The translations under genes and the position numbers were made by a program. The notes beneath the pieces are model-generated. The model searched no databases. It worked only from the letters and a program-made list of their open reading frames with translations, and was not told where the DNA came from. A stretch of 64,000 nucleotides of DNA, taken from the NCBI RefSeq assembly GCF_037076525.1, contig NZ_AP029018.1, forward strand, positions 1,823,001 through 1,887,000, written 5' to 3'. The first letter of the stretch is position 1, and each line of letters opens with the position of its first letter. Below, one piece after another: positions 17,801 through 38,012 of this stretch. The DNA is from Selenomonas sp. TAMA-11512. GTDB lineage: Bacteria > Bacillota > Negativicutes > Selenomonadales > Selenomonadaceae.

Positions 17801-18843
17801 GGACCGACGACGATAACGGAACGCCCCGAGTAGTCCACGCGCTTGCCGAGGAGGTTCTGACGGAAGCGGCCCTGCTTGCCCTTGAGCATATCCGAGAGCG
17901 ACTTCAACGGACGATTGCCGGGGCCGGTAACCGGACGGCCCCGGCGGCCGTTGTCGATGAGCGCATCGACCGCCTCCTGGAGCATGCGCTTCTCATTGCG
18001 GACGATGATATCCGGCGCGCCGAGATCGAGCAGACGCTTGAGACGATTGTTGCGGTTGATGACACGGCGATAGAGATCGTTGAGATCGCTTGTCGCGAAG
18101 CGGCCGCCGTCCAGCTGCACCATCGGGCGCAGCTCGGGAGTAATGACGGGAACGACGTCCATGATCATCCACGAGGGATTGTTGCCGGACTTGCGGAACG
18201 CCTCGACGACTTCGAGACGGCGAATCGCGCGCACCTTGCGCTGTCCGGAGACCTCGCGCAGCTCCTTGCGGAGCTTCTCGTTCATCTCCTCGAGATCGAG
18301 CTCATCCAGCAGCTCTTTGACCGCCTCGGCGCCCATGCCGACACGAAATTCATCGCCGTACTTGGCGCGATTTTCACGATACTCGGTCTCCGTCAGGAGC
18401 TGTTTCTTCATCAGCGGCGTGTCCGCCGGATCGAGCACGATGTAGGAAGCGAAATAGAGCACCTTTTCTAAAGAGCGGGGGCTGACGTCCAAGATGAGCC
18501 CCATACGGCTTGGGATGCCCTTGAAATACCAAATATGGGAGACGGGAGCGGCGAGCTCGATGTGTCCCATGCGATCGCGGCGAACCTTCGCGCGCGTGAC
18601 CTCGACACCGCAGCGGTCGCAGACGATGCCCTTATAGCGGATGCGCTTGTACTTGCCGCAATGGCATTCCCAGTCGCGCGTAGGTCCGAAAATACGCTCG
18701 CAGAACAGACCGTCGCGCTCCGGCTTCAAGGTGCGATAGTTGATCGTCTCCGGCTTCTTGACCTCACCGTACGACCAGTCACGAATCTTCTCTGGCGAAG
18801 CAAGGCCGATCCGCATCGAATCAAAGTTGTTTACATCCAACAA
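14857..18843 (-). CDS. rpoC: DNA-directed RNA polymerase subunit beta'
   Basis: Largest subunit of RNA polymerase, carrying the catalytic Mg2+ loop in [13 protein letters not shown]. The N-terminal zinc finger CHCGKYKR...CDRCGVEV, the bridge-helix region and the C-terminal [14 protein letters not shown] zinc site are all present. At 1328 residues it is about 130 longer than the Bacillus subtilis protein. The extra length lies around residues 800-980, where a GR-AxDI-xxET-E motif occurs twice (about 816 [16 protein letters not shown] and about 967 [16 protein letters not shown]). The gene follows rpoB after 18 bp and must be co-transcribed with it. The frame is intact. Confidence 0.98.
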
Positions 18844-18861
18844 GGCGGTATCGCTCCTTTC

Positions 18862-22608
<3,747 letters not shown>

Positions 22609-22702
22609 TAAGTCCCTCACCTCTCTCAATCGCAGATACATCTTTCTATCGCTGTGAAAAAGCTAAACACACACAAAAAAGCCGAAACAGACGGAGGGTC
22701 AC

Positions 22703-22735
22703 AAAAAAACAAGGCGAACACATTCCCAGCCTTGC
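22703..22735 (-). terminator. Attenuator-like intrinsic terminator in the rpoB leader
   Basis: In the rpoB direction GCAAGGC and GCCTTG form a stem around a 13-nt loop, followed by seven Ts. It lies about 115 nt after the promoter at 22850-22878 and about 95 nt before rpoB, so transcripts must read through it. The rest of 22609-22948 contains no gene. Confidence 0.6.
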
Positions 22736-22849
22736 TTTTTCTCTACGCTCCTATCACGTTCCGCATTCTTCAAAGTATTTAATTTCCCAGCTTCAAAACT
22801 CGCAACCTTGTACGCTCCTAATATCATATCGTACACGTCGTAGTGATAC

Positions 22850-22878
22850 AGTTTACTATAGTTCTGACGGCGTGTCAA
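22850..22878 (-). promoter_or_regulatory. Likely rpoBC promoter
   Basis: TTGACA (22873-22878), 17-bp spacer and TAAACT (22850-22855) on the minus strand, about 240 bp upstream of rpoB. A sigma-A-type match. Confidence 0.7.
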
Positions 22879-22948
22879 TCAAAAATTTTTGTCTGTTTTT
22901 ATTTGCCGACTCGGCTCCTTTACAATAAAACCGTCATTTATATTTCTC

Positions 22949-23686
22949 TTACGCTTCTCTGTCAAGCGCTCCGTGGTCATAGAAATAGCTTCCCTTGACA
23001 ATGCTTTCGGCATCGCCCTCGCCATGACACTCTATATAGCGCAGCATATTCTCGTGCACGTCGATCATCTGCTTCTGTCCCTTTGCCGTCCTCGTCATAT
23101 TGTGAATCGTACGGCGACGAATTTCCGTCGTCAAAAGACGCACGAGCTTTGCAATCTTCGCAAAGAGAGGATTTTTCGTCATCGTGGCCAGTGTATCGTG
23201 AAAAGCGTTGTCCTGTTGGAAGGAGTCCTCTCCATCCGCCGCTAAAAGGGCCTTTTTCAGCTTTTTAAAAACCTGCTCCAGCTCTTTGATATCTGCCGCC
23301 TCGGCATGGCGCGCCGCCAGAACAAGCATGCCTATATCCAGCCACTCACGCAGCTCCTTTAAGGAGTCCAAGGACTCCGAGCGGTCGAGAATGATGCCGT
23401 AGAGCAGCGGGTCGATCATCTTATCCGAAAACCCCTCCGACACAAACGTGCCGTCCGGACGTCGTATCTCAAGCACTCCAAAGGACACGAGGATCTTGAT
23501 CGCCTCGCGCACGGAATTGCGTCCGACCCCCAGACTATCCGAGAGCTCTATCTCTGTCGGGATGCGATCGCCGGGATTCAGCTCTCGTCGAATCATTGCG
23601 CCGGTTAACCGCTCAATCACGCGATCCACCACAGAGGTGCTTCTGATCGGTTTCAAAAAGCTCTGCCCGGCAGCTGCCTGTTCCAT
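22949..23686 (-). CDS. FadR-type GntR transcription regulator
   Basis: 245-residue regulator with an N-terminal GntR winged helix (PGDRIPTEIELSDSLGVGRN, SVREAIKILVSFGVLEIRRP) and a C-terminal FCD effector domain of about 150 residues (AFHDTLATMTKNPLFAKI; VDVHENMLRYIECHG-like metal/ligand histidines). The start at 23686 has GGAGG 7 nt upstream; the ATG two codons earlier is too close to the site. It ends the catabolic cluster and is the natural candidate to bind the repeated operator-like sequences at 26503 and 33316 (inference). Effector unknown, perhaps a sugar acid as in many FCD proteins. Confidence 0.9.
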   Translation of the reverse strand: MEQAAAGQSFLKPIRSTSVVDRVIERLTGAMIRRELNPGDRIPTEIELSDSLGVGRNSVREAIKILVSFGVLEIRRPDGTFVSEGFSDKMIDPLLYGIILDRSESLDSLKELREWLDIGMLVLAARHAEAADIKELEQVFKKLKKALLAADGEDSFQQDNAFHDTLATMTKNPLFAKIAKLVRLLTTEIRRRTIHNMTRTAKGQKQMIDVHENMLRYIECHGEGDAESIVKGSYFYDHGALDREA

Positions 23687-23865
23687 CTCCATGCCTCCTT
23701 CAAGTGCTTAAACAAATGTATTCTGCGCATTTTCTTAATCGCATCAACAATTAGTATACAGGAAATAAAATAGATTGGCAAAAGAAGGGCAACCCTATGG
23801 CTGTAGGCTGCCCATCTCTTGCTGAAAGGGGTTTATGGTATTTTCTATGGAAGCACGATGGAGGA

Positions 23866-24618
23866 TCAGTCCATGTGCGATCCGCCGTTGATGTCGATTT
23901 CCTCACCCGTGATGTAGGACGCTTCCTTGGAGGCGAGGAACACGATGGTGTTTGCGACTTCCTGCGTCTCGCCCGGGCGCTTCATCGGAATGTCGTCAAT
24001 TACCTTCTTGACGAGATCTTCCGGAAGCGACTTCCAGATTTCCGTGTTGATAAGACCGGGGCAAACGCAGTTAATCGTAACTCCCTTGTCGGAAATCTCA
24101 CGGGACAGGTTCTTGGAGAATGCCATGACGCCGGCTTTTGCCGCCGAGTAATGCGCACCGCCGAAGATACCTCCGCCGCGCTTCGCGGATACGGAGGAAA
24201 GGTTGACGATACGGCCGTAGCCCGCCTCGATCATCGGCTTCATGCACGCCTGTGTGACGAGAAAGAGACCGAACATGTTAACCGCAAAGATTTTCTGCAT
24301 ATCCTCCAGCGTCATGTCGGCGACCGTGACCTTCTGCGAAATGCCGGCATTGTTGACGAGGACATCGATACGGCCGAACTTGTCCATAAGGGTCTTGACC
24401 ATATGGTCAACCGATGCCTTATCCGTGACATTGAGTTCGATCGGGAATGCCTTTCCGCCCTCAGACTCAATGAGCTTAGCGGTTTCTTCCTGCCCGCGCA
24501 GGTCGGCGATGACAACCTGTGCACCCTGCTTTGCAAACGTGCGGGCAATGACGCGGCCGATCCCCTTCTCGGAGCCTGCACCGGTGACGATGACTACCTG
24601 ACCATCAAATTCTAACAT
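23866..24618 (-). CDS. SDR-family oxidoreductase (gluconate/polyol dehydrogenase-like)
   Basis: 250-residue classical short-chain dehydrogenase. The nucleotide site is VTGAGSEKGIGRVIA (TGxxxGxG type), NNAG occurs at 89-92, and the catalytic set is Ser141/142, Tyr157 and Lys161 (YSAAK). IADL after the second strand suggests NAD(H) preference. RBS AGGAGG precedes the ATG at 24618. It is the last gene of the transketolase unit. A sugar, polyol or sugar-acid substrate is likely from context, but specificity cannot be told. A GC-rich hairpin lies in the 109-bp gap to the transketolase gene. Confidence 0.85.
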   Translation of the reverse strand: MLEFDGQVVIVTGAGSEKGIGRVIARTFAKQGAQVVIADLRGQEETAKLIESEGGKAFPIELNVTDKASVDHMVKTLMDKFGRIDVLVNNAGISQKVTVADMTLEDMQKIFAVNMFGLFLVTQACMKPMIEAGYGRIVNLSSVSAKRGGGIFGGAHYSAAKAGVMAFSKNLSREISDKGVTINCVCPGLINTEIWKSLPEDLVKKVIDDIPMKRPGETQEVANTIVFLASKEASYITGEEIDINGGSHMD

Positions 24619-24727
24619 GTTTATGCCTCCTAAGATTCGCAAATGAAACCCGCCTGTCCCTGCGGGCGCCGCTCCCTGCGCATGGAGGGAACGGCCCGCC
24701 GCAAGAGACGCACAATGTATACGAAGC

Positions 24728-25653
24728 TTACTGCAGGCTCTCCGCCTGCTTGACGATGTTCTCGACGGTGACGCCGTTCTTCTCGAGAAGTCTCTCATAA
24801 GGCGCGGACTCGCCGAACTGATCTTGGATGCCGATGCGGCGGACAATCCCCTTGCCCATCTCCGCGACAACTTCCGAGACGGCGCTGCCGAGACCGTTGA
24901 TGATGTTGTGGTCTTCGACCGTGACGATCTTGCCGATCTCGTTGACTGCCTTTGTGACGGCCTCCACATCAAGCGGCTTGATTGTGTGGATGTCGAGTAC
25001 GCGAGCCGAGATACCCTTCTTCTCAAGCTCTGCCGCCGCGTCGATGGCAAGGCGAACCGTATCGCCGTTTGCAAGGAGGGCGACACCCTTGCCGTCACGA
25101 ACCTGATGTGCCCTGCCGATCGTGAATTCCACATGCTCATCGTAGATGACGGGAACGCATCGCGCGTAAAGCGGAGATAAACAGGTCCGTCATAGTTTGC
25201 AGCCGCGCGGACGAGCTTTCTTGCCGAGAAGTAATCTGCCGGCATGATGACCGTCATATTCGGAATCGTGCGGAGCACTCCCATGTCCTCGATGGCCTGA
25301 TGGCTGGCGCCGTCGTTTGCGGGAGTCACGCCGCCATGTGAGCAGGCAATCTTGACGGGAAGCTCCGTGTAGCAGATCTGCTGACGAATCATCTCGCATA
25401 TGCGCAGGGAACCGAATACTGCATAGGTGACAACAAACGGAATCTTGCCGCACGTGGCGAGACCGGCGGCTACACCGGCCGCGTTCTGCTCCGCAATGCC
25501 GACATTGACATGCTGTTCGGGAAACGCCTTTGCAAATGCCGTCGTCTTGCAGGACTTTCCGATATCGGCATCAACAACGTAAATGCGGGAATCCTCTTTA
25601 CCGAGGGCGACAATCTCGTCTCCAAAGCCGTCGCGAGTTGCTTTCTTTTCCAT
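24728..25653 (-). pseudogene. Transketolase, C-terminal subunit, single frameshift
   Basis: The C-terminal half of a split transketolase, carrying the Pyr domain and the C-terminal domain. The first frame gives MEKKATRDGFGDEIVALGKE, IYVVDADIGKSCKT, GIAEQNAAGVAAGLA (with the catalytic Glu) and YFSARKLVRAAANYDGPVYL. After TRDAFP the protein continues in another frame as VIYDEHVEFTIGRAHQVRDG and ends EKNGVTVENIVKQAESLQ. Inserting one base in the GGG at about 25151 (+ strand) restores about 308 residues. It overlaps the end of the N-terminal subunit gene by one base (TAATG). Either a real -1 mutation or a base-call error. Confidence 0.85.
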
Positions 25654-26467
25654 TATGCTTTTCCTCCCAGCTCTGCCATTGCCTGCTCATACTGCTCTTT
25701 GTTCGGAGCATTGCCGTGCCAGCCGCAGTCATTCTCCATGTAAGAAACGCCCTTGACCGTCTGTGCAATGATTGCCTTCGGCAGACCGTTCTTGGAGAGG
25801 TGAATCGAATCCATCGTGCGGCAGATCGCTTCCATGTCATGGCCGTCCACATAATAGATCTCGAAGCCGAAAGCCTTGAACTTCTCGGCGAGATCGCCGT
25901 TCGGCATGACATCGTCCGTCGAACCGTCGATCTGGAGCTTATTCACATCAAGGATGACAACAAGGTTGTCGATCTGATACTTGTGCGCCGTGTTTGCCGC
26001 TTCCCAGATCTCGCCTTCCTGTGCCTCGCCGTCACCGACCATGCAGTAAGTCCAGAAGGATTTTTGTCACGCTTGCCGGCGAAAGCCATGCCGACCGCGC
26101 AGGCAAGCCCCTGCCCGAGGGAACCCGTCGAAATGTCGATGCCCGGGCACTTGACCATCGAAGGATGCCCCTGCAGAGGAGAGCCTTCCTTGCGAAGCGT
26201 GTGGAGCACGGACTCTTCAAAATAGCCGAGCTTACCGAGCGCCGCGTACTGAATCGGTGCTACATGGCCCTTAGAGAGAACGAAGCGGTCTCTGTCTTCC
26301 CATTTCGGATCGACATTCATGTACTTGAAATACAGTGCCGCAACGAAGTCCGCCGCCGACAGGCTGCCGCCCGGATGCCCCGACTGTGCCTCGTAAATCA
26401 TGGTCACAGCCGTTTTCCTAAGCTCCGTCGCGATGTCCTTGAGCTCCGCTACACTTCTTTTTGGCAT
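25653..26467 (-). pseudogene. Transketolase, N-terminal (TPP-binding) subunit, single frameshift
   Basis: N-terminal half of a split transketolase. It has SGHPGGSLSAADFVAALYF, RDRFVLSKGHVAPIQYAALG, GHPSMVKCPGIDISTGSLGQ, then after a frameshift near 26055 the thiamine-diphosphate motif GDGEAQEGEIWEAANTAH with VVILDVNKLQIDG. One added base in the CC of the AATCCTTC stretch restores the frame (about 270 residues). AAGGAG lies 9 nt before the ATG at 26467. With the downstream gene it would form the two-subunit enzyme that transfers two-carbon units and can use erythrose 4-phosphate, the expected product of the isomerase pair next door. Confidence 0.85.
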
Positions 26468-26502
26468 TACCATTCACTCCTTTATAATTTTCCCGTTTGT
26501 AC

Positions 26503-26560
26503 AACATAGGATGTTACGACCTTTACTAAAGGTCGTAACATCCCACATTGACCGTGTCAA
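26503..26560 (-). promoter_or_regulatory. Promoter and palindromic operator of the transketolase unit
   Basis: On the minus strand TTGACA (26555-26560) is followed by a poor -10 (TACGAC, 26532-26537, 17-bp spacing). A perfect palindrome with 17-bp arms and a single central base occupies 26509-26543. Partly overlapping it, GTAACATCCTATGTTGTAC contains AACAT-CCT-ATGTT (26503-26515), nearly the same as a site just after the -10 of the TRAP promoter at 33316-33328. Confidence 0.6.
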
Positions 26561-26608
26561 GCACTTTTTCCGTTTTCCTCAAATAATTTTGAGATTTCAT
26601 AAGACAAA

Positions 26609-26641
26609 GGAGAGTCATCCCTGCGGACAACTCTCTCCGTG
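26609..26641 (-). terminator. Terminator-like hairpin after the TPI-like gene
   Basis: GGAGAGAGTT and ACTCTCC form an imperfect stem, followed by TTTGTCTT on the minus strand, directly after the stop at 26644. It separates the isomerase unit from the transketolase promoter. Confidence 0.45.
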
Positions 26642-26643
26642 CA

Positions 26644-27438
26644 TCATCGACCTGCCTTTTTTCGGGCCAGACGAATCAAATCATTGAATTTTTCCGCATC
26701 CCATGCGCTACGGCCGACAAAGAGTCCGTCGATGTTTCTGCGGACAATGAGCTCCTCGGCATTCTGCGGATTGACACTGCCGCCATAGAGGACGGGGAGC
26801 TCCTCGCCGCGCGCGCCGAAGAGCTCCACGAGGCAGTCACGGATGACCTGATGCTTCGTCTCGGCATATTCCGCACTCGCCGGCTTTCCGCCGACGCCGA
26901 TTGCCCAGACCGGCTCGTAAGCGACCCAGATCTTCGGCGTATCACCGTCAAAGGCACGCTCCGCCGGGACATCCTTGAATCCCACTTTGAGCTGCGTACG
27001 GAGGACTTCATCGGAGATGTTGTTCTCCTTCTCCTCCCCCGTCTCGCCGACGCAGAGAAGCGCCGTGAAGCCATGCCTGCGGGCGGCAAGGACTTTCCAA
27101 TTCTCCCGCTCATCGGTCTCACCGAAGACATGACGGCGCTCCGAGTGACCGATCATGACAAGGTCGAGCGCAAGCTCTTTGAGCATTACGGGACTGATTT
27201 CTCCCGTAAACTGTCCTTCATCCTCCCACCCCATGTTCTGCGCGCCGAGATGGACAAGTCCGCGGTTCTCGATCTTAACGGCATCGGGAAGCGACGTATA
27301 TGAAGGAATGACAAAGAGCTCAAAATCCTCACGATTCATGTCCTTCGTGAGATCCGTCAGCGTATCGAGAAACACCTTCGTCTCTTTGATGGTCTTGTAC
27401 ATCTTGAGGTTTGTACCGAAGTAAATCTTCTTTAGCAT
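26644..27438 (-). CDS. Triosephosphate isomerase-like aldose/ketose-phosphate isomerase (possibly L-erythrulose 1-phosphate isomerase)
   Basis: 264-residue TIM barrel. The catalytic set is present: Asn10 and Lys12 (GTNLKMYK), His98 (IGHSERRHVFGE) and Glu175 (YEPVWAIG). The flexible loop 6 reads AIGVGGKPAS instead of the usual AIGTGK, which is a feature of TPI paralogues (LerI/EryH type) that act on tetrulose phosphates. It overlaps the RpiB-like gene by 7 bp; that pair makes D-erythrose 4-phosphate in the erythritol pathway of Brucella and Mycobacterium. The alternative is a real TPI that takes dihydroxyacetone phosphate made by PdxA2. Confidence 0.85.
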   Translation of the reverse strand: MLKKIYFGTNLKMYKTIKETKVFLDTLTDLTKDMNREDFELFVIPSYTSLPDAVKIENRGLVHLGAQNMGWEDEGQFTGEISPVMLKELALDLVMIGHSERRHVFGETDERENWKVLAARRHGFTALLCVGETGEEKENNISDEVLRTQLKVGFKDVPAERAFDGDTPKIWVAYEPVWAIGVGGKPASAEYAETKHQVIRDCLVELFGARGEELPVLYGGSVNPQNAEELIVRRNIDGLFVGRSAWDAEKFNDLIRLARKKAGR

Positions 27439-27875
27439 GTGCCTTTTTCCTCATATTCCGTCATCGCGTCGACTTTCTTGCCGGAGCGTTCGTTGTAGAC
27501 ATACGTCTCGTTCAGAAAGGCGGTGATAAGCTCCTTGCCGAGCATATCGCCGTCGACCTGTGAGCCCAGCGTCATGATCTGGCAGTTATTGGATAGTACC
27601 GCGCGCTTTGCGGAATACACATCATGGACTACCGCTGCGCGGATGCCCTTGACCTTGTTCGCCGCAAGCATGACGCCCAGGCCCGTCCCGCAAAACAGAA
27701 TGCCGCGCTCAAAGTGTCCCGCGGCGATCTCTTCACCGACCTTGACAGCGACGCGCGCATAGATCGGATCCTCGCTGCCGAAATCCGTGACTTCATGTCC
27801 GAGGCTCTTGATGTGCTCAATCATGATCTGCTTGTAGCTCTCTGCGTTCGGATCGCAGCCTACTGCTATTTTCAT
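27432..27875 (-). CDS. RpiB/LacA/LacB-family sugar-phosphate isomerase (possibly D-erythrulose 4-phosphate isomerase)
   Basis: 147 residues beginning MKIAVGCDPNAESYKQIM, with the phosphate-binding region DFGSEDPIYARVA and the active-site Cys62 in GILFCGTGLGVMLAANKVKG. The length and C-terminal tail fit RpiB homologues of the DerI/EryI type more than classic ribose 5-phosphate isomerase B, but sequence alone does not settle it. RBS AAAGGAAG precedes the ATG. It sits between the DUF1537 kinase and the TPI-like gene, with which it is translationally coupled. Confidence 0.87.
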   Translation of the reverse strand: MKIAVGCDPNAESYKQIMIEHIKSLGHEVTDFGSEDPIYARVAVKVGEEIAAGHFERGILFCGTGLGVMLAANKVKGIRAAVVHDVYSAKRAVLSNNCQIMTLGSQVDGDMLGKELITAFLNETYVYNERSGKKVDAMTEYEEKGTC

Positions 27876-27904
27876 AATGTGTACTTCCTTTCGTAAAACA
27901 AACG

Positions 27905-29154
27905 TTATCTCGATGCTTCCAGCATGATGCGGTCGACGATTTCAATCGCCATGCCGTTGTGCCCCGTAAGTCCGCCCTTGCCGATGATGGGAAATCCCTC
28001 GTAGTGTCCCGTCAGGCGACCGACATCGATCTGCGCGATGACATAATCCAGGACTTCGATGCTCTCCACGCCCAGCATGGCGCAGACATTGACCATCGTA
28101 TCGCCGCCCGTGGCATAGATGCCGGCAATCTTGTCCCGATCGACACGACGCAGCACACGGGAGATGATCATGCCCAGCCCCGCGTTGATACGGTCGGCGG
28201 AGGAATTCCCCTCCGTGTAACCGTGCGCCGCATCCTCTTCCGCGAGATTCAGGACGATGTCGTGAAGCGCCGTCTCAAACAGAATGGCGCGCGGCTGCTC
28301 TCTGCGATTGAGGAGTACGATGGCCGCGTCGACGGCACGATCGACTTCATGAAGCGCCGTCTCTCCATCCTCGATGAACGCCCTCGGGTCACAGGAAATG
28401 CGAATGCATCTCTCATCCTGTGTCAGGACTTCCATCTGCTTCTTCGTGACGGGCGTCGCGGAGCCGGCGGCAATGAGCACCGTCTTGTTGCGGACAGGAG
28501 GTCCGTCGGGAATATTCGGCGCCTCCGGTTCAACGAGTCCACGGCGATAGGCGAGCTTCGTCGTAAAGGGGCCGGGATCCGCTGCAAGGACATTCCAATC
28601 GAGCGCTACGCACGCCTTGGCAACCTCATCCACATCCTCGATCGTGATGGCGTCGACAACGATGACGCGCGCGCCGCCAAGAGCGCAGGAATGTAGTTTT
28701 CCCTGACCGGCGTGCGCACATCGCGTGCCGCCGGCGTCTTGACGAGAGCGACGCCGTCGATGACGGAATACCCGCCGACGAGAATGCGGCGGGACTCCGG
28801 CATAGCCGGGACGACAATCGCCACGGCATCATCCCCCAGATCCTCGAGCATCTGGTCAATCTCATAGCCGACGCCGCCGCGCATCGTCGTATCCGTGCGC
28901 TTGGAGAAGTACACCGCCCCCATCTTCTTGAGCGCAGCCATCGCGTCGTGAACAAGTCCTTTCGCCATCGGCGGCGGCAGCGGACGGGAATTCGTCGATA
29001 TGACGACGGCATCGAGTCCGAGATCTTTTTCCTCGCGAAGCGCGGCATTCGCAATGAAGTAGACCTGTGTACGTGCCTTGCTGCGAGCCAATATGACGCC
29101 TACCGTTGTAGCGCCTGTCAAATCGTCCGCGATGACACCGATGCGTTCCGCCAT
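27905..29154 (-). pseudogene. Four-carbon acid sugar kinase (DUF1537, DtnK/OtnK-like), single frameshift
   Basis: DUF1537 kinases phosphorylate D-threonate, D-erythronate or related acids. The N-terminal frame starts MAERIGVIADDLTGATTVGV with the family signature ADDLTGA and continues through STNSRPLPP and KRTDTTMRGGVGYEID. After about residue 157 the frame shifts (in GCGCGCGCC near 28670) and goes on as ACVALDWNVLAADPGPFTTK, LIAAGSATPVTKKQMEVL and YATGGDTMVNVCAMLG, the C-terminal nucleotide site. One added base restores about 416 residues. The ATG follows the PdxA2 stop by 1 base. As sequenced it cannot make a full protein. Confidence 0.87.
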
Positions 29155-29155
29155 C

Positions 29156-30171
29156 TTACCTGCCCCCGTCGTGCTTCAGGATCGCGTACTCGGCGCAGAC
29201 TTTCGTCGATTCGATCAGGCTGATCGGGTTTGCGATATGCTTGCCGGCGATGTCGAAGGCGGTGCCGTGGTCGACCGACCCGCGGATGAAAGGAAGCCCC
29301 CATGTAATCGTGACAGCCTTTTCAAAGTCCAGCGTCTTGCAGGCGATATGTCCCTGATCATGATACATCGAAAGGATGGCGTTGAACTTGCCGCTCTTGC
29401 CGATGTTGAATATGGAATCGCCCGGAATCGGTCCGACCGCATTGATCCCCTCCGCTTTTGCCGCCTCAACAGCCGGAATGAGCTCATCGATTTCCTCACG
29501 GCCGAAGAGCCCGTTGTCTCCGTTGTGCGGATTGATGCCGGCTACAGCAATCAGCGGATTGTCAATGCCGACGGAGCGAAGCTCCTTGTCGATGTTGCGA
29601 ATGAAGTCGAGGACGACATCCTTCGTAGCGTACTTGACCGCGTCTATGAGCGACATATGGCGGCTGACAAAGAATACGCGAACGCGTGGCAGGAGAACAT
29701 CGTGAGCGCATAGGGAGACTTCGTCGCGTTCTGATAGATCTCCGTATGACCCGGCTCCTTGACATGACAAAGCTTGATGGACTGCTTATTGATCGGAGAT
29801 GTCGAAACCACGTCGACCTTTCCGGCAAGTCCGAGCTCGATCGACTTCATGATCCAGTCGATCGACATCTGCCCCGCTTCTTTCTGCACCTCGCCCCACT
29901 TGATATTGTCTTCATCGTAAGTGCCCGTCTCCAAGACATCGACCGTGCCCAGCTCGTACTTCGCCTCGGACGGATCGCTGATGACGTTGATCGCAAAATC
30001 CTGTCCGATGACTTCACGTGCGCGCTCAAGCATCTTCCTGCTGCCGATGACAAATGGGCGGCAGCAGTCGGCAATCTCCTGACTGAGCATCGTCGCTGCC
30101 GTGATTTCGGGGCCTATACCAGCAGGATCTCCCATTGTGATTGCCATGACCGGCTTAAATGCCATACGCAA
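29156..30171 (-). pseudogene. PdxA2-type 4-phospho-tetronate dehydrogenase, single frameshift
   Basis: PdxA2 oxidises 4-phospho-D-threonate or -erythronate, which then loses CO2 to give dihydroxyacetone phosphate. The first frame shows ITMGDPAGIGPEITAATMLS, the family start, then KQSIKLCHVKEPGHTEIYQN. After SPYALTMFSCHA the frame shifts (about 29680, in CGCGAACGCG) to RVRVFFVSRHMSLIDAVKYA, IAVAGINPHNGDNGLFG, MYHDQGHIACKTLDFEKAVT and RGSVDHGTAFDIAGK, which carry the metal-binding histidines and aspartates. One added base restores about 337 residues. Its coupling to a DUF1537 kinase is what distinguishes PdxA2 from the vitamin B6 enzyme. Confidence 0.87.
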
Positions 30172-30235
30172 TTCCTCCCTCGCATACTATAAGAAGCACT
30201 GATACAGGAAGTGATCCCTATAACTATACATTATC

Positions 30236-30425
30236 CTATGTTCCACATTGTTTGTATTCTTCTCAAATGCCTTATATCCTTTTTCCAAAAATTTTTATCT
30301 GCCATCTCTTTGACAGCCGCCTCGACGATATCAAATACCGTGACGTCAAAGCCCGCCTTCAGGAGATTGCGAACCATCGGCCGGTCCATGATGCCCAGCC
30401 CGATAAATCCTACCTTTTTCTCCAT
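30236..30425 (-). pseudogene. GarR/3-hydroxyisobutyrate dehydrogenase-like N-terminal fragment
   Basis: A good ribosome site (GGGAGG) precedes MEKKVGFIGLGIMDRPMVRN, LLKAGFDVTVFDIVEAAVKE, the Rossmann start of beta-hydroxyacid dehydrogenases such as tartronate semialdehyde reductase. The usual GLGxMGxPM is GLGIMDRPM here. The match ends after about 48 residues and the frame stops at residue 64, where the full enzyme has about 290. The remaining 30172-30300 holds no gene; ATCCTATGTT at 30234-30243 is a partial match to the operator-like repeat. Confidence 0.75.
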
Positions 30426-30454
30426 ATATATGCCTCCCGGAACTGTAATACATT

Positions 30455-30486
30455 TATAGACAAGGCCCCAAGGGAGCCTTGTCTAT
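30455..30486 (-). terminator. Terminator-like hairpin after dctM
   Basis: TATAGACAAGGC pairs perfectly with GCCTTGTCTATA around an 8-nt loop, 17 bp after the dctM stop. It has no long T run. Confidence 0.55.
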
Positions 30487-30502
30487 AAAAAACACTATGC
30501 GC

Positions 30503-31780
30503 TTATACAAAAAGCAGCGAAATCGCCGGAATGTAGGTGAGAATCATGAGCGCGACAATCGCCGCCAGCACGAACGGCACAACGGCAACCGACATGCTCT
30601 TCAAATCGACGCCGCATCCGACAAACAGATTCGCGCCGACCGGAGGCGTAATCATGCCGATGGCGAGATTGACGATCATGACGACGCCGAAGTGGACCAG
30701 GTTGATATCCATAGCGACGGCAACCGGCACGAAGAGCGGCGTAAAGATGAAGAGCGCCGATGTCGAGTCGAGGAAGCACCCGGCAATGAGGAGGATGACG
30801 TTGACAATCAGGAGGAAGATGATGTAGTTGCCGCCCGAGATGTCGATGAGTCCCTGACTGATCGCGAGGTCGAGACGGGAACGCGTGAGGATGTACGCAA
30901 AGAGCGATGCGCCCGCCGTGATGAACATGATGACAGCCGTCAGGGATACCGAGTCCACAAAGATATCGTAGAGATCCTTGAATTTCAGCGTGCGATAGAT
31001 GAAGAAGCCGACGAACAGACCGTAGACGACCGATACGCAGGCCGCCTCCGTCGGTGTGAACACACCGCCGTAGATACCGCCGAGGATGATGCCCGGCATC
31101 AGGAGACCCCAGAAAGCGTCCTTGAAGGAATCCCAGCGCATCTTCGCCGTCGCCTTCGGGAAGATTTCGACCTCCGCATTGCGACTGATCCAAAACGCCG
31201 TGATGATGAGGAAGACACCGATTATAAGCCCCGGAACGACACCGGCGATGAAGAGATCACCAATGGACGTATCGGCAATGGAGCCGTAGACGACGAATGT
31301 GATGGACGGAGGGATGATAACGCCCAGCGCTCCGGCCGACGTCATGAGCGCCGAGGAGAATGTCTTGGAGTAGCCGTCATTGACCATGGCCGGTATGAGG
31401 ATCATGCCGAGAGCGGCAACCGTTGCCGGACCCGAGCCGGAGATGGCGGCGAAAAACGCGGCAACGCCGACGCAGACGACGATGAGTCCGCCGCGGAGAT
31501 GACCGACAAAGTTCTGTGCAAAGTTGATGAGACGCGTGGAGATGCCGGCTTTTTCCATGATGGTACCGCTCATGATAAAGAACGGGATCGCCATCAGGAC
31601 AAACTTACTTGTCGAGGATGAAACGATACGCGGAAGCGTCGTCATAATCGCTTCAATAGGCTTGCCGGCTGCGTCGTAGAGCATCGCGGCGATACTGCCC
31701 GTCCCCAGGCAGACGGCGATCGGCGTGCCGATGAGAAGAAACAGGAAAAATACACCGAACAGAATAAATGATAACATCAT
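30503..31780 (-). CDS. dctM: TRAP transporter large permease subunit
   Basis: 425-residue membrane protein of the DctM family with about 12 hydrophobic segments; it is the ion-driven translocation subunit of a TRAP importer. Family segments include FFIMSGTIMEKAGISTRLIN, AAISGSGPATVAALGMILIP, GALGVIIPPSITFVVYGSIA and LAIGMITPPVGANLFVGCGV. The frame is intact, unlike its partners dctQ and dctP. It overlaps the end of the dctQ reading frame by 4 bp. The substrate is probably a tetronate or similar sugar acid, given the kinase/PdxA2 genes downstream (inference). Confidence 0.94.
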   Translation of the reverse strand: MMLSFILFGVFFLFLLIGTPIAVCLGTGSIAAMLYDAAGKPIEAIMTTLPRIVSSSTSKFVLMAIPFFIMSGTIMEKAGISTRLINFAQNFVGHLRGGLIVVCVGVAAFFAAISGSGPATVAALGMILIPAMVNDGYSKTFSSALMTSAGALGVIIPPSITFVVYGSIADTSIGDLFIAGVVPGLIIGVFLIITAFWISRNAEVEIFPKATAKMRWDSFKDAFWGLLMPGIILGGIYGGVFTPTEAACVSVVYGLFVGFFIYRTLKFKDLYDIFVDSVSLTAVIMFITAGASLFAYILTRSRLDLAISQGLIDISGGNYIIFLLIVNVILLIAGCFLDSTSALFIFTPLFVPVAVAMDINLVHFGVVMIVNLAIGMITPPVGANLFVGCGVDLKSMSVAVVPFVLAAIVALMILTYIPAISLLFV

Positions 31781-32258
31781 GCTTCCTCCCCTTTCTTCAC
31801 CTTTTCACCTGCAAGGTGCTTCTTCAGTACGATTGCAAACTCAAGCGTGCAGAAGAACGCGCCGATCGGCACAAAGGAGCCGAATATCCACTCCGGCCAC
31901 TGCATGCCGGCGGTCACCTGATGACGCCCGTACTGGCTGATCGTCATGAGAATTCCAAGCAGATCGCGCCCGAGTAGACCGTGCCCAGCAATGCGCTGAT
32001 CGAAGCCAGGAAGCGCTTCGTCTTCGGAGAAAAGATATCGAAAATCGCCGTGAATCCGAGATGTGCGCCGCGGCGAGCCGCAATTGCAGCCCCTATGAGA
32101 GAAAGGATGACGAACATGTAGGTCGTGATCTCCTCGGAGAAGGAGAACGACGCACTGAAAACATAGCGTGAGACAACGTTTGCGAACGCAATCGCCGTCA
32201 TGCAGACCAAGCATATAATCGAAACCCAATTTTCAATTTGGGTCAAAAGCTGACGCAT
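31777..32258 (-). pseudogene. dctQ: TRAP transporter small permease subunit, single frameshift
   Basis: Four-helix DctQ subunit. The first frame gives MRQLLTQIENWVSIICLVCM, FANVVSRYVFSASFSFSEEI and ARRGAHLGFTAIFDIFSPKT, the family core, and ends early after YSGAICLEFS. The true continuation in another frame is GILMTISQYGRHQVTAGMQW and FVPIGAFFCTLEFAIVLKKH. Adding one G at CTTGGAATT (about 31954) restores about 160 residues. It lies 13 bp after the dctP stop. Confidence 0.85.
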
Positions 32259-32270
32259 GATATGATCTCC

Positions 32271-33288
32271 TTATTCGATGCCAAAAGCAGCTGCCGCATC
32301 CTTGCCGTACTTGAACTTGAATTCGTCGATGACCGGCTGCACCTTCGCCTTGAAAGGAGCCAGCTCCTCAGGAGACAGGGTTGTCACTTCCATGCCGCCG
32401 GCGCGGAAGGACTCAGCCAGCTTGACTTCATTCGCTTCGACCATGTCACGTCCCCACTCGCACGATTCCTTTGCCTTGCGGCGAATGAGCTCCTGCGTCT
32501 TGGGATTGAGGCTCTCCCAAATCTTTGTATTGAATACGAAGAGATAGCTTTCATACGTATAATTCCAAACGGTCATATACTTCTGAATTTCATTGACCTT
32601 TGCCGATGCCGTGACGGAGAAGCCGTTTTCCTGTCCGTCGATCGTACCCTGCTGAATTGCCGTGAACGCTTCACCCCAGCTCATGGCGACTGGGTCGGCA
32701 TCGAAGGCACGCCAAAACTTCATGTAAAGCTCACTGCCCGGGACACGGATCTTGAGTCCCGCGACGTCTTCCGGAGTCTTGACGGCGTGCTTGCTGTTCG
32801 TGATCTGACGGAAGCCGTTGTGAACGGAGCCGAGATACGTAAGTCCCTGCGTCGCAAGGATCTTTTCATAATGCGCCGCCCGTCGAGTCAATGACCTTAC
32901 GCGCCTGCTGGTAGTTGTCAAACGTCCAGGGAATACCGGCAACGACGAGACGCTGATCGAGCGTGCCCAAAACAACGGTTGCATAGGCAGCCAAGTCAAC
33001 GGCGCCGTCGGCGACCATCTCGACACCCTTCGTCATGTTGCCGCCGGCGAGCTGGTCATTCGGGAAGACGTCGATCTTGATCTTGCCGCCGCTCTCTTTT
33101 TCCACTTCCTCGGCAAAGTGCAGCGCCGTCTTCGTGTCGGTCGCTATGTTCGTACCGTTGACCGTCATGACAAGATGCAGATCCTGATACTCATTGGAAG
33201 ATGCGCTGTCGCCTCCTCCGCCGCCGCATCCTGTAAATGCAAAAAGCGTGGAAACTACAAGCAATAACCCTGCAAATTTTCGTTTCAC
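32271..33288 (-). pseudogene. dctP: TRAP transporter substrate-binding lipoprotein, single frameshift
   Basis: DctP binds the substrate outside the membrane. The GTG start at 33288 has AGAGGAGGAAATAAT before it. The signal peptide ends in a lipobox (FAFTGCGGGGG). The N-terminal frame runs through NDQLAGGNMTKGVEMVADGA and VAGIPWTFDNYQQARKVIDS. After STGGA it shifts frame (about 32875, GGCGGCGC) to HYEKILATQGLTYLGSVHNG, LKIRVPGSELYMKFWRAFDA and AFTAIQQGTIDGQENGF, the DctP-type ligand site. Removing one base restores about 338 residues. This is the one site where the shift is opposite to those in the other five genes. Confidence 0.86.
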
Positions 33289-33315
33289 ATTATTTCCTCC
33301 TCTTACATAATGTTC

Positions 33316-33361
33316 AACATAGGACGTTACTAAATATAACACACTCTGCCAAATATTGCAA
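33316..33361 (-). promoter_or_regulatory. TRAP operon promoter with overlapping operator-like site
   Basis: TTGCAA (33356-33361), 17-bp spacer, TATATT (33333-33338) on the minus strand. Just downstream, GTAACGTCCTATGTTGAAC includes AACGT-CCT-ATGTT (33316-33328), placed where a repressor would block the transcription start. It matches the site at 26503 at 18 of 21 positions. Confidence 0.7.
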
Positions 33362-33507
33362 GATGTATTTATTGTTCTATTGTATTTTTTAATTGTTTGT
33401 GTGTAAGTACAAATTATTATTGAAATAATGATGATAATTGCGTTTTGCCGTCTTTTGTAAACAGAGCGGCTGTCTTATGGCAGCCGCTAACGTCTCGCAT
33501 TATAAAA

Positions 33508-33551
33508 GAGCCGTCCGCGCTGTTCTCAAAGAAAACAGCGCGGACGGCTCT
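33508..33551 (-). terminator. Terminator of the polysaccharide deacetylase gene
   Basis: AGAGCCGTCCGCGCTGTT pairs with AACAGCGCGGACGGCTCT, 18-bp arms, then TTTT on the minus strand. A second hairpin GCGGCTG/CAGCCGC follows at about 33467-33488. Confidence 0.85.
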
Positions 33552-33554
33552 CAC

Positions 33555-34391
33555 TTATCGTTTTGTCCATCCGTATTTTTCAAAAAGCGGCACATAGCGC
33601 ATCCGCTTCTGAAAGTCCGCCTCTGTATCGACCGTGTGAAAAATGGGGATGCGCTCAATCGCATAGAGATTGCTCCCGAGGTCGGTATTGCCGTTCTTGA
33701 TGGTAAACGCCGCCCTGTAGCCGGCAGCTCTGGCAAGCTCTGCGATATGGAGGTTGTATGTGCCTGTCGGATAGGCAAAATAGTGAACCTTCTTGTTGAG
33801 CTTTGCCTCTATAAACGCCTTGGATGCGGTCAGTTCCTCTTTGAGCTGATCATCGGACAGCTCTGTCATGGAGCGATGGGTCATCGTGTGCGACTCGATG
33901 GAGATGCCGTTTGCCTCCATCTCCCGCGCCTGTTCCCATGTGATGTAATGCGGCTTTTCTCCGACAAATCCCGCTACGACGAAGATCGTTGCCTTGAAGC
34001 CGTACTTCTTCAGGATGGGATAGGCATTTTCATAATTGTCCGCATAACCGTCATCAAAGGTGATCAGGACGGACTTCTCGGGGAGCGGCGCCCCTTCCGT
34101 CAGCGCCGCATAGAGCTCATCCGGCGATATGGAATGAAAGCCCTCATTGGCAAACCATGCAATCTGCCGTTCAAAATCATCCGGCAAAATCGAGAGCGAT
34201 ATGTGCATATCGTCCACTTTATGATAATTCAAAATGCGAATCTTGGGCCCCAGCTCTGCCTCCTCATTTCGATACGCCTTGACATCGTTGTCGGATTGAG
34301 ACAGCTCTCCGCCGACCGCAATGCCCAGCACCAGCAACAAGACGCTTCCCAGCAGAACCTTCCACAGCCAACCTCGCGCTATATGCCCCAA
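33555..34391 (-). CDS. Polysaccharide deacetylase (NodB/CE4) family protein, membrane anchored
   Basis: About 278 residues. One N-terminal membrane helix (KVLLGSVLLLVLGIAVGG) places the enzyme on the outer face of the inner membrane. The NodB domain follows with ITFDDGYADNYENAYPIL (catalytic Asp and metal Asp), SHTMTHRSM (metal histidines) and FAYPTGTYN. Members remove acetyl groups from glycans such as peptidoglycan. The start is likely TTG at 34391, preceded by AAAGGGAAAG; no in-frame ATG is well placed. It follows the phosphoribosyltransferase gene by 34 bp. Confidence 0.87.
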   Translation of the reverse strand: MGHIARGWLWKVLLGSVLLLVLGIAVGGELSQSDNDVKAYRNEEAELGPKIRILNYHKVDDMHISLSILPDDFERQIAWFANEGFHSISPDELYAALTEGAPLPEKSVLITFDDGYADNYENAYPILKKYGFKATIFVVAGFVGEKPHYITWEQAREMEANGISIESHTMTHRSMTELSDDQLKEELTASKAFIEAKLNKKVHYFAYPTGTYNLHIAELARAAGYRAAFTIKNGNTDLGSNLYAIERIPIFHTVDTEADFQKRMRYVPLFEKYGWTKR

Positions 34392-34425
34392 TTTTCTTTC
34401 CCTTTGCTTTCCATGTACGAATCCA

Positions 34426-34977
34426 TCACTCGGGTTTAAAGAGCGGCAGCTCCGCCAAATAGATGATGTCCTTTCGCTTGACCGCATCCCCCTCGGCGAG
34501 TACCGCCGCCTGTCCGACAACCGTGCCGCCGGCGATTTCGACAAGCTCACAAAGAGCCTTCATGGAGCCTCCCGTACTGATGACATCATCGAGAATGAGC
34601 ACCTTGTGTTCCTTGATGCGTCGAATATCCGGCTTGTTGAGACAAAGCGTCTGCACGCCCTGCGTAGTGATGGAAACATCCTCCACCCAGATAGGCTGCT
34701 CCATATACGCCTTGACGGATTTTCTTGCAACTACGTAGTAATCGTGCCCGATTTCTCTGGCAAGCGATGCCGCAAAGGGGATGCCCTTTGTCTCGGCCGT
34801 CAGGATGACCTCCGTCTCCGCCGGCACGTTCTTCGCCATCTCGCGTGCGCACGCTTCCGTGAGCTCCACATCACCGAGCATGATGAACGCCGCAATCGCA
34901 AGCGTATCCGATACATTCAATACGGGCAACCGGCGTCTGACTCCCGCCACCTCCAGCTCATAAAATCGATTTGCCAT
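34426..34977 (-). CDS. Adenine/xanthine phosphoribosyltransferase-like protein
   Basis: 183 residues. The type I PRTase PRPP loop is VLILDDVISTGGSMKALCEL, and ETKGIPFAASLAREIG plus YVVARKSVKAYM match the adenine phosphoribosyltransferase group. It transfers a purine base to PRPP in salvage, or acts as a PRPP-sensing protein. GGGGAGG precedes the ATG at 34977; the frame is open 70 codons further upstream but without a site. An exact base preference is not clear. Divergent lysA starts 137 bp away. Confidence 0.82.
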   Translation of the reverse strand: MANRFYELEVAGVRRRLPVLNVSDTLAIAAFIMLGDVELTEACAREMAKNVPAETEVILTAETKGIPFAASLAREIGHDYYVVARKSVKAYMEQPIWVEDVSITTQGVQTLCLNKPDIRRIKEHKVLILDDVISTGGSMKALCELVEIAGGTVVGQAAVLAEGDAVKRKDIIYLAELPLFKPE

Positions 34978-35043
34978 GATGTTCCTCCCCGCGTTTTCTT
35001 TCTCTCTGCAGCTTGCGCGCAAGCATACAGCCTTAGTATAGCA

Positions 35044-35073
35044 TTGACACGGCAAAAGGGCAATTGCTATAAT
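35044..35073 (+). promoter_or_regulatory. lysA promoter
   Basis: TTGACA (35044-35049), 18-bp spacer, TATAAT (35068-35073), about 40 bp upstream of the lysA start. Confidence 0.85.
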
Positions 35074-35113
35074 AGATGATGTTTTTACGCAGTATCTCCA
35101 CAGGAGGCCCCTT

Positions 35114-36370
35114 ATGACAGAAAAGACATTTCCTCTTACGAAAGAGCAGCTTGAACGCATCATCGAAATGCATCCGACCCCTTTCCACATCTACGACGAG
35201 AAGGCCATCCGGCAAAATATCCGACGCTTCCTGAAAGCGTTCTCCTGGGCGCCTCGCTTCCGTGAGCACTTCGCTGTCAAGGCGACACCAAACCCGAGAA
35301 TCGTTCAGATTCTGCGCGAAGAAGGAGCGGGTACCGACTGCAGCTCGCTCGCCGAGCTCATTCTTTCCGATGTCGCCGGTGTCAGGAAAGAGGATATCCT
35401 CCTGACCTCCAACGATACGCCGGCCGAGGAGTTCATCAAGGCTCGCGAGCTCGGCGCGCGCATCAATCTCGACGACATCACCCACATCGATTACCTTGAA
35501 AAGCACGCGGGGCTGCCCGACTTCCTGTGCTTCCGCTACAATCCGGGCTCCCTTATCGAGGGCAACGATATCATCGGTAAACCCGAGGAGGCGAAATACG
35601 GGCTCACCCGTGAGCAGCTCTTTAACGCATATGCAATCGCCCGGGAAAAAGGCGTCCACCGCTTCGGACTGCACACGATGGTCTTCTCGAATGAACTTCA
35701 GAATGACGCATTTCTCTTCACCGCCGAGATGATGTTCAAGCTCGCCGTCGAGATCAAAGAACGCCTCGGCATCACACTTGAGTACATCAACCTCGGCGGA
35801 GGCATCGGCATCCCCTATCATCCGGATCAGGACGCTGTCAGCTACGAATACGTCGGCGACGCCATCCATAAGCTCTACGACGAAATCCTCGTCCCCGCCG
35901 GCATCGGCGACATCATGCTGGCGACGGAGTCGGGACGCGCCATGACAGGCCCCTTTGACTGGCTTGTGACGACCGTGCTCCACGAGAAAAATACCTATAA
36001 GCACTATATCGGACTTGACGCCTGCATGGCGAATCTCATGCGTCCGGCCCTCTATGGCGCCTACCACCACATCACCGTTGCGGGCAAGGAAGTCGCCCCT
36101 CTCGATCATCTCTACGATGTGACCGGATCGCTCTGCGAAAACAACGACAAGTTTGCCATTGACCGCGCTCTGCCGAAGATTGAAATCGGCGACCGCGTCA
36201 TCATCCATGACGCCGGCGCCCACGGTCATGCGATGGGATTTAACTACAACGGCAAGCTCCGCAGCGCCGAACTCCTGCTGAGAGAAGACGGCTCCGTCGA
36301 GCTCATCCGCCGCGCGGAGACCCTCGACGACTACTTCGCGACACTGCGCTTTCCCGGCAGCATGATGTAA
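35114..36370 (+). CDS. lysA: Diaminopimelate decarboxylase
   Basis: 418-residue PLP enzyme of the fold-III decarboxylase family, catalysing the last step of lysine synthesis (meso-diaminopimelate to lysine and CO2). The PLP lysine is Lys56 in HFAVKATPNP. The glycine loop INLGGGIGIPY and ATESGRAMTGPFDW bind cofactor phosphate and substrate; the cysteine of GSLCENNDKFA comes from the partner subunit. AGGAGG lies 9 nt before the ATG. The variant is a little unusual for LysA (PTPFHIYDEKAIRQN start), so another fold-III amino-acid decarboxylase is possible. An ISLre2-type element inserted 29 bp after the stop. Confidence 0.83.
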   Translation: MTEKTFPLTKEQLERIIEMHPTPFHIYDEKAIRQNIRRFLKAFSWAPRFREHFAVKATPNPRIVQILREEGAGTDCSSLAELILSDVAGVRKEDILLTSNDTPAEEFIKARELGARINLDDITHIDYLEKHAGLPDFLCFRYNPGSLIEGNDIIGKPEEAKYGLTREQLFNAYAIAREKGVHRFGLHTMVFSNELQNDAFLFTAEMMFKLAVEIKERLGITLEYINLGGGIGIPYHPDQDAVSYEYVGDAIHKLYDEILVPAGIGDIMLATESGRAMTGPFDWLVTTVLHEKNTYKHYIGLDACMANLMRPALYGAYHHITVAGKEVAPLDHLYDVTGSLCENNDKFAIDRALPKIEIGDRVIIHDAGAHGHAMGFNYNGKLRSAELLLREDGSVELIRRAETLDDYFATLRFPGSMM

Positions 36371-36399
36371 GCCTGCAATCCGCAGATGTAAACCGTAAA

Positions 36400-37967: not shown

Positions 37968-37983
37968 AACCGTAAATTTTCTC

Positions 37984-38012
37984 TTGCCAAACATCCTGCA
38001 TTGCGCTATACT
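37984..38012 (+). promoter_or_regulatory. tRNA-Ala promoter
   Basis: TTGCCA (37984-37989), 17-bp spacer, TATACT (38007-38012), 13 bp before the tRNA. The IS insertion stopped 7 bp upstream of the -35. Confidence 0.75.

Follow-up and report, generated by a model that had tools for sequence, protein, structure and literature searches.

The isomerases LerI and DerI (EryH and EryI) are the closest described relatives of the enzyme pair treated here. The roles of the Brucella enzymes EryH and EryI are given in sections of PMC11508834, and according to parts of PMC10733421 LerI and DerI together feed D-erythrose 4-phosphate (E4P) in E. coli. PdxA2 is an organic-acid catabolism paralogue able to do the PdxA reaction (a section of PMC9997740), and the DUF1537 kinases are summarised in portions of PMC10971088. 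An erythronate route with an aldolase-DUF1537 cluster appears in part of PMC10580937, and a sulfo-transketolase pathway (SqwGH, SqwI) in part of PMC9594981. Searches of one open literature collection returned no description of the gene combination reported below. PdxA2-type enzymes oxidise the 3-hydroxyl of their substrate and lose CO2, a reaction known for four-carbon acid 4-phosphates, with DHAP as the product. The Rhizobium gene order OiaX, DUF1537, LerI, DerI presumably represents an apionate route, in which we take L-erythrulose 1-phosphate to be the decarboxylation product.

We analysed a window of 64,000 nucleotides from Selenomonas sp. TAMA-11512 (positions 1823001-1887000 of a 2,593,422-base contig). 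An operon of eleven genes runs on the minus strand from position 33342 down to 22949, listed here in the direction of reading:

32271-33342, minus strand: TRAP solute-binding protein DctP, in two frames (comparison with intact relatives)
31777-32258, minus strand: TRAP small permease DctQ, truncated (ORF 31944-32258 matches profile positions 1-80 of 132)
30503-31780, minus strand: TRAP large permease DctM, intact (PF06808, 3.7e-110)
29156-30171, minus strand: PdxA2-type (PRK03743-like) dehydrogenase, frame-broken at about 29685 (family hits and comparison with relatives)
27905-29154, minus strand: DUF1537 acid-sugar kinase, frame-broken at about 28670, about 30 codons of homologous sequence missing (family hits and comparison with relatives)
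27432-27875, minus strand: RpiB-family isomerase, probably DerI/EryI type, intact, 147 aa (PF02502, E 3.4e-40)
26644-27438, minus strand: TIM-barrel isomerase, probably LerI/EryH type, intact, 264 aa (PF00121, E 8.8e-71)
25653-26473, minus strand: transketolase N-terminal subunit, in two frames, break at about 26063-26072 (comparison with intact relatives)
24728-25653, minus strand: transketolase C-terminal subunit, in two frames, break at about 25150-25175 (comparison with intact relatives)
23866-24612, minus strand: short-chain dehydrogenase, the C-terminal part of a 595-aa ORF (23866-25653), 5' end approximate (PF13561, 1.1e-67)
22949-23692, minus strand: GntR-family regulator with FCD domain, intact (PF00392, 1.2e-15; PF07729, 2.6e-15)

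Six of these eleven genes are broken. Comparison with intact relatives shows a split across frames in five of them (DctP, PdxA2, DUF1537 and the two transketolase subunits), and DctQ is truncated; an overlapping ORF in another frame of the DctQ region (31777-32229, end assigned by eye) had no family hit. The initial annotation correctly placed DUF1537, PdxA2 and a transketolase, which has two subunits, beside the isomerase pair, but it missed the frame breaks in each of them. The GntR regulator, the short-chain dehydrogenase, the LerI-type and DerI-type genes and DctM are intact (5/11). The breaks cluster in the operon, and the neighbouring rpoB and rpoC (ORFs of 1259 and 1328 aa, named by eye), which adjoin it past the GntR regulator, are whole. 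The two PdxA2 halves match the Klebsiella PdxA with one residue between them, and the DUF1537 gene is without about 30 codons found in all nine relatives printed. Because of this missing stretch, decay is favoured over a local assembly error. With so many of its frames broken, the operon probably does not support the pathway in this strain if the assembly is correct, and the isomerase pair probably counts among its surviving parts. A stronger version would have the whole operon as a decaying remnant, functionless in this strain, with isomerase genes that have merely not yet been hit; it is compatible with the other readings discussed below as to the origin of the genes. The six broken genes, the codons missing from DUF1537 and the intact rpoB and rpoC ORFs next door argue for such a remnant, but five genes are intact and an assembly error in this stretch is possible, and we regard it as a serious possibility that we would not bet on.

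The TIM-barrel gene and the RpiB-like gene overlap by 7 bases, in coordinates and sequence alike, in agreement with the initial annotation, and both ORFs are intact. The TIM-barrel protein (TIM protein below) also keeps the catalytic residues of triose-phosphate isomerase (TPI), as stated there; these are Asn/Lys in TNLKMY, His in GHSERR and Glu in EPVWAIG, whose catalytic roles we take to be those of TPI. Its loop 6, VWAIGVGGKPAS, exceeds the WAIGTG of TPI by one residue. In our alignment of 63 TIM-family proteins, three motif changes (the loop-6 insertion, GRxAW, and a T/S-N/S-x-K first loop replacing GNWK) were present in all 26 LerI-side rows, which comprise the window protein, 11ef, rhizobial proteins of erythritol and OiaX loci and others, and in 0 of 34 TPI rows, four of which (L064, L068, L072 and L077) received the TPI label after the motifs had been seen. 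Three divergent relatives, the genome's own third TIM and the Klebsiella variicola and Listeria Dha-locus TIMs, show neither motif set (0/3). The altered loop 6 (VWAIGVGGKP) first pointed out from the sequence is thus real and clade-wide, and a chance change in loop 6 was ruled out because the insertion is common to the whole clade.

In a 40-row tree (26 LerI-side and 14 TPI rows, with 20 of the 34 TPI rows omitted for speed and the three divergent relatives also left out), the window protein was positioned on the LerI side of a branch with 100/100 support, which was 100/99 once the motif columns had been removed. A quick tree of all 63 rows, including every TPI row, gave an SH-aLRT value of 84 for the TPI side. 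The window protein sits in a 17-row LerI subclade (97/94) made up mainly of Firmicutes, plus Planctomycetota and Pasteurella. Its closest relative is from a Lachnospiraceae locus (L053, 68% identity), which is without DerI, PdxA2 or DUF1537 in the 20.8 kb fetched.

The best match of the TIM protein among solved structures was 11ef, an L-erythrulose-1-phosphate isomerase, with 205 bits compared with 184 for the best TPI. Raw identity separates LerI from TPI little: the values are 47-48% to two rhizobial LerI, 44% to 11ef, 41% to both the Thermotoga (T. maritima) TPI and the Klebsiella TIM, and 36% to the TPI of this genome. PRK14905 and PRK15492, the top-scoring NCBIfam models, carry TPI names, with the protein below their cut-offs, and the cut-off was reached for 0 of the 9 TPI models listed (TIGR00419, 125.7 vs 130.6). 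Such model names do not decide identity, because a rhizobial LerI also passes models named TPI. The protein has neither the WAIGTG loop 6 nor the VGGA loop 8 and falls outside the TPI clade; plain TPI was ruled out by tree position and motifs.

Three TIM-family genes are encoded in the genome: the window copy, a copy in a gap-pgk-tpi-gpmI locus (names assigned by eye from the translations) and a divergent third. A separate glycolytic TPI is present, and the second TPI gene that the initial annotation had proposed to look for was therefore found, in the gap-pgk-tpi-gpmI locus. The third gene (L093:8425-9171, at about 494.5 kb) encodes a very divergent TIM without the usual loop motifs and with NHAENP replacing GHSERR; the genes beside it, judged by eye, resemble class II aldolase and glucitol-PTS genes. 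A 491-aa ORF that is apparently the same at L093:5850-7322 and L095:2328-3800 (identical over the start printed) lies close to the third TIM gene and to the genuine RpiB gene, and is possibly a mobile element. LerI-type genes close to that of the window are rare, occurring in 3 of 189 family genomes (E 1e-55) and 5 of 398 phylum genomes (E 1e-60), counts that include the genome itself and use E limits chosen to exclude TPIs, which may miss divergent LerI. The family of G556 yielded no new LerI (1 of 10 genomes, G556 itself).

For the RpiB-like protein, the best solved match was 5ifz, which is named ribose 5-phosphate isomerase and groups closely in our tree with the DerI of erythritol loci. 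Where the two genuine RpiB rows (the genome's own copy, L081, and the solved 3he8) show HND, 26 of 28 rows have SNN or SND. The window protein reads SNN and does not carry the SDH and HND histidines, which presumably serve RpiB function. A quick tree grouped it apart from RpiB with a support of 99, in a comparison where only two rows are genuine RpiB; 3qd5, a protein listed as a putative RpiB, carries a DerI-like motif and falls on the DerI side. Its score against the NCBIfam DerI equivalog of Rhizobium type (NF051858) was 140.8 bits against a cut-off of 240, and it passed the broad RpiB subfamily models PRK05571 (148.9 vs 135) and TIGR00689 (103.5 vs 88.3), for which reasons we did not file it under NF051858. 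Plain RpiB was ruled out by the tree and the motifs. In the tree its nearest neighbour is another copy from this genome, which lies beside transketolase subunits. A second acid-sugar-like locus of this genome (L094, 2463000-2482000) contains a TRAP transporter, a galactarate/altronate dehydratase-like protein, a DerI-type gene 56% identical to that of the window and two split transketolase pairs, and LerI was absent from the 19 kb fetched.

Because the tree, the motifs and the best solved matches agree, we assign the window pair to the LerI/DerI (EryH/EryI) type with a probability of about 0.85, judged from sequence. This bears out the resemblance proposed in the initial annotation, and the phylogeny it had called for groups the pair with neither the TPI rows nor the two genuine RpiB rows. 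With LerI/EryH (11ef), the TIM protein shares the TIM-barrel family, the loop-6 insertion, GRxAW, the side of the 100/100 branch and an adjacent RpiB-type gene; it differs in its separate, mainly Firmicutes subclade (97/94), its 44% identity to 11ef and its setting, no erythritol genes having been found in the 20 kb scanned around the pair. Its partner resembles DerI/EryI in the loss of the RpiB-type histidines, the SNN motif and the pairing with LerI, but lies below the Rhizobium-type equivalog cut-off.

Using the TIM protein, we found 24 LerI-type loci, the window included, and fetched stretches of 3.5 to 21 kb. An RpiB/DerI gene was found at 20 of them and a RuBisCO-like protein at 14 within the stretch fetched; DhaK occurred at 7, FGGY kinase and transketolase at 5 each, DUF1537 at 4, and PdxA at 3 (the window, G033 and Pasteurella). 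A RuBisCO-like protein and PdxA were found together at 0 of 25 loci when Klebsiella was added (chance of no overlap, 0.026), and the two might fill the same slot. Four RuBisCO-like proteins that were checked are matched by RuBisCO large-chain models. Only the two rhizobial ones carry an OiaX annotation, and 12 of the 14 are only distant relatives of the decarboxylase OiaX (about 27-32% identity). At L049 and L052, LerI and DerI lie near a RuBisCO-like protein plus a UPF0261 protein. The Rhizobium OiaX-DUF1537-LerI-DerI loci (L035, L036) resemble the window in having a DUF1537 kinase and a decarboxylase gene beside LerI and DerI; however, the decarboxylase is RuBisCO-like there and of PdxA2 type in the window, and the kinases are about 24-27% identical.

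The genome G033, from the host's family, has LerI-MFS-DUF1537-PdxA2 in one run without DerI, and about 19 kb off on the same contig DerI lies with the two subunits of a split transketolase; the G033 PdxA2 shows no special affinity to that of the window. The Pasteurella locus (L034) comprises PdxA (28% and 40% identical to the window PdxA2 pieces), DhaK, DhaL, an EryC-matching TIM-barrel protein, RpiB, TRAP, LerI, Tal and Tkt. Its LerI-type TIM (L034:10001-11050) is fused to a glucose/sucrose-type PTS EIIB.

A Klebsiella locus (L097) encodes the same five enzyme families as the window, with TIM, PdxA, DUF1537, KdgT, glucitol-PTS IIA, rpiB, tal and tkt side by side, and this cassette is intact. 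Its record is titled plasmid, yet the mfd and lolCDE genes adjoining the cassette suggest a chromosomal location. Among 46 PdxA proteins, that of Klebsiella came out closest to the window pieces, with 62% identity to each (runners-up by bits, 50% and 54%), and each piece paired with it in a quick tree (SH-aLRT 98 and 100; 44 rows per tree including the window piece, from the 46 plus the piece with rows of >420 aa omitted). Among 40 DUF1537 proteins that of Klebsiella again ranked first (58% and 45% identity, the runners-up having about 46% and 34%), a close kinship of both enzymes that comes from one other locus, reached via a PdxA search and not an unbiased draw. The two loci differ in that Klebsiella has KdgT and PTS parts instead of TRAP, a one-piece transketolase, a transaldolase and a kinase fused to a PTS domain, and its TIM, unlike that of the window, groups with rhizobial LerI (95/90; long branch). 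The fused kinase (L097:9029-10747) carries a glucitol-type PTS IIB. When a 3.8-kb Klebsiella stretch was compared with E. coli genomes, no place covering 80% was found (0/5426), and the 20 matches listed were all srlE. The Klebsiella DUF1537 had matches in 14 of 398 Firmicutes genomes at 32-45% identity.

As a control, we opened 38 PdxA2 places (33 from phylum and 5 from family searches, mostly the strongest of about 70) with flanks of up to 8 kb, some cut by contig ends. DUF1537 was present at 32, and DeoR, DUF1537, PdxA and a transporter occurred together at 31. LerI, DerI, TPI or transketolase was found at 0 of the 38. The DUF1537-PdxA2 D-threonate route therefore resembles the window in its kinase and dehydrogenase families but differs in its neighbourhoods, and for this reason a plain D-threonate operon was not adopted. 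Such an operon would be expected to have intact adjacent kinase and dehydrogenase genes; those of the window are adjacent and both frame-broken.

A tetronate pathway that has its own triose isomerase would offer another account of the gene set: DUF1537 and PdxA2 would turn a four-carbon acid of D-threonate type into DHAP, the TIM homologue would be a TPI, and RpiB and transketolase would be pentose phosphate accessories. For the DUF1537 and PdxA2 pieces of the window, the top-scoring models are those of D-threonate kinase and PRK03743 PdxA, though these fragments stay below cut-off; in G033 the TIM homologue lies in an operon-like run with DUF1537-PdxA2 and DerI is absent, and a transaldolase is also present in Klebsiella. 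Against this, the window TIM has the motifs and tree position of LerI and not those of TPI, a housekeeping TPI exists in the genome and a TIM gene occurs at 0 of the 38 PdxA2 loci, and we consider this explanation improbable.

The initial annotation had instead suggested a joint tetrose/tetronate pathway, which would amount to two separate branches, DUF1537-PdxA2 making DHAP from a tetronate and LerI/DerI making E4P from a tetrulose, with a shared transporter and regulator. That both enzyme sets are there, on one strand, stands. However, a profile search of positions 18001-38000 (E 1e-10) found no DhaK- or FGGY-type kinase to start the tetrulose branch, and Klebsiella shows the same combination together with the nearest relatives of the window's PdxA2 and DUF1537 among those compared, making two routes unlikely. 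One pathway via a tetrulose phosphate fits better than two parallel ones, because PdxA2 loci are normally without LerI, DerI and transketolase (0/38) and the PdxA2 and DUF1537 of the window are closest to those of Klebsiella.

The DerI-type enzyme and the split transketolase could also have a different tetrose or tetrulose as substrate, in the manner of the sulfo-transketolase pathway, with LerI auxiliary. A DerI-type gene lies beside a split transketolase, with LerI not adjacent, both at another site of this genome (2478-2480 kb) and in G033, and SqwGH and SqwI provide a precedent in the portion of PMC9594981 cited above. Yet no sulfosugar gene is named among the family hits obtained for the window operon, and the LerI and DerI genes overlap, so that we give this arrangement very little credence.

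We favour a single pathway, leading from an acid sugar through a kinase, oxidative decarboxylation, a tetrulose phosphate and LerI/DerI to E4P and transketolase, although we put the whole chain at slightly under even odds. The TRAP transporter would bring in the sugar acid, the DUF1537 kinase would phosphorylate its terminal hydroxyl, and the PdxA2-type enzyme would oxidise the 3-hydroxyl with loss of CO2, forming a four-carbon ketose phosphate. From a five-carbon acid the PdxA2 step would yield a tetrulose phosphate, and from a branched acid of that size this would be L-erythrulose 1-phosphate. LerI and DerI would then shift the carbonyl to yield D-erythrose 4-phosphate, which would enter the pentose phosphate pathway via transketolase. 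With a straight pentonate, PdxA2 would instead form D-erythrulose 4-phosphate, for which DerI alone would suffice. L-erythrulose 1-phosphate appears the likeliest product because LerI, and not DerI alone, has been kept, and such a product would point to a branched, isoapionate-type acid.

What the data show for this single-pathway reading is which clade and motif set the two isomerases belong to, which genes accompany them, and that the same set returns in Klebsiella; every reaction and the five-carbon substrate we infer from these. Against it count, among other points, the known chemistry of PdxA2, which gives DHAP from four-carbon acids, and the separate clusters of DerI and LerI in G033. 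In its most specific and rather doubtful form, which would be a further entry into erythrose 4-phosphate, the PdxA2-type enzyme would decarboxylate a DUF1537-phosphorylated 2-C-hydroxymethyl-tetronate (isoapionate type, our best guess) to L-erythrulose 1-phosphate, doing the step that a RuBisCO-like decarboxylase carries out in the apionate route, and LerI, DerI and transketolase would lead onward from there; this pathway would be intact in Klebsiella and damaged here.

Relatives of both window proteins are labelled triose-phosphate isomerase and ribose 5-phosphate isomerase B in public records, and the LerI type can be recognised simply by the motifs described above (26/26 vs 0/34 in the rows compared). 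If the single pathway is true, PdxA2 and DUF1537 enzymes would act beyond four-carbon acids. The intact Klebsiella cassette makes this reading directly testable.
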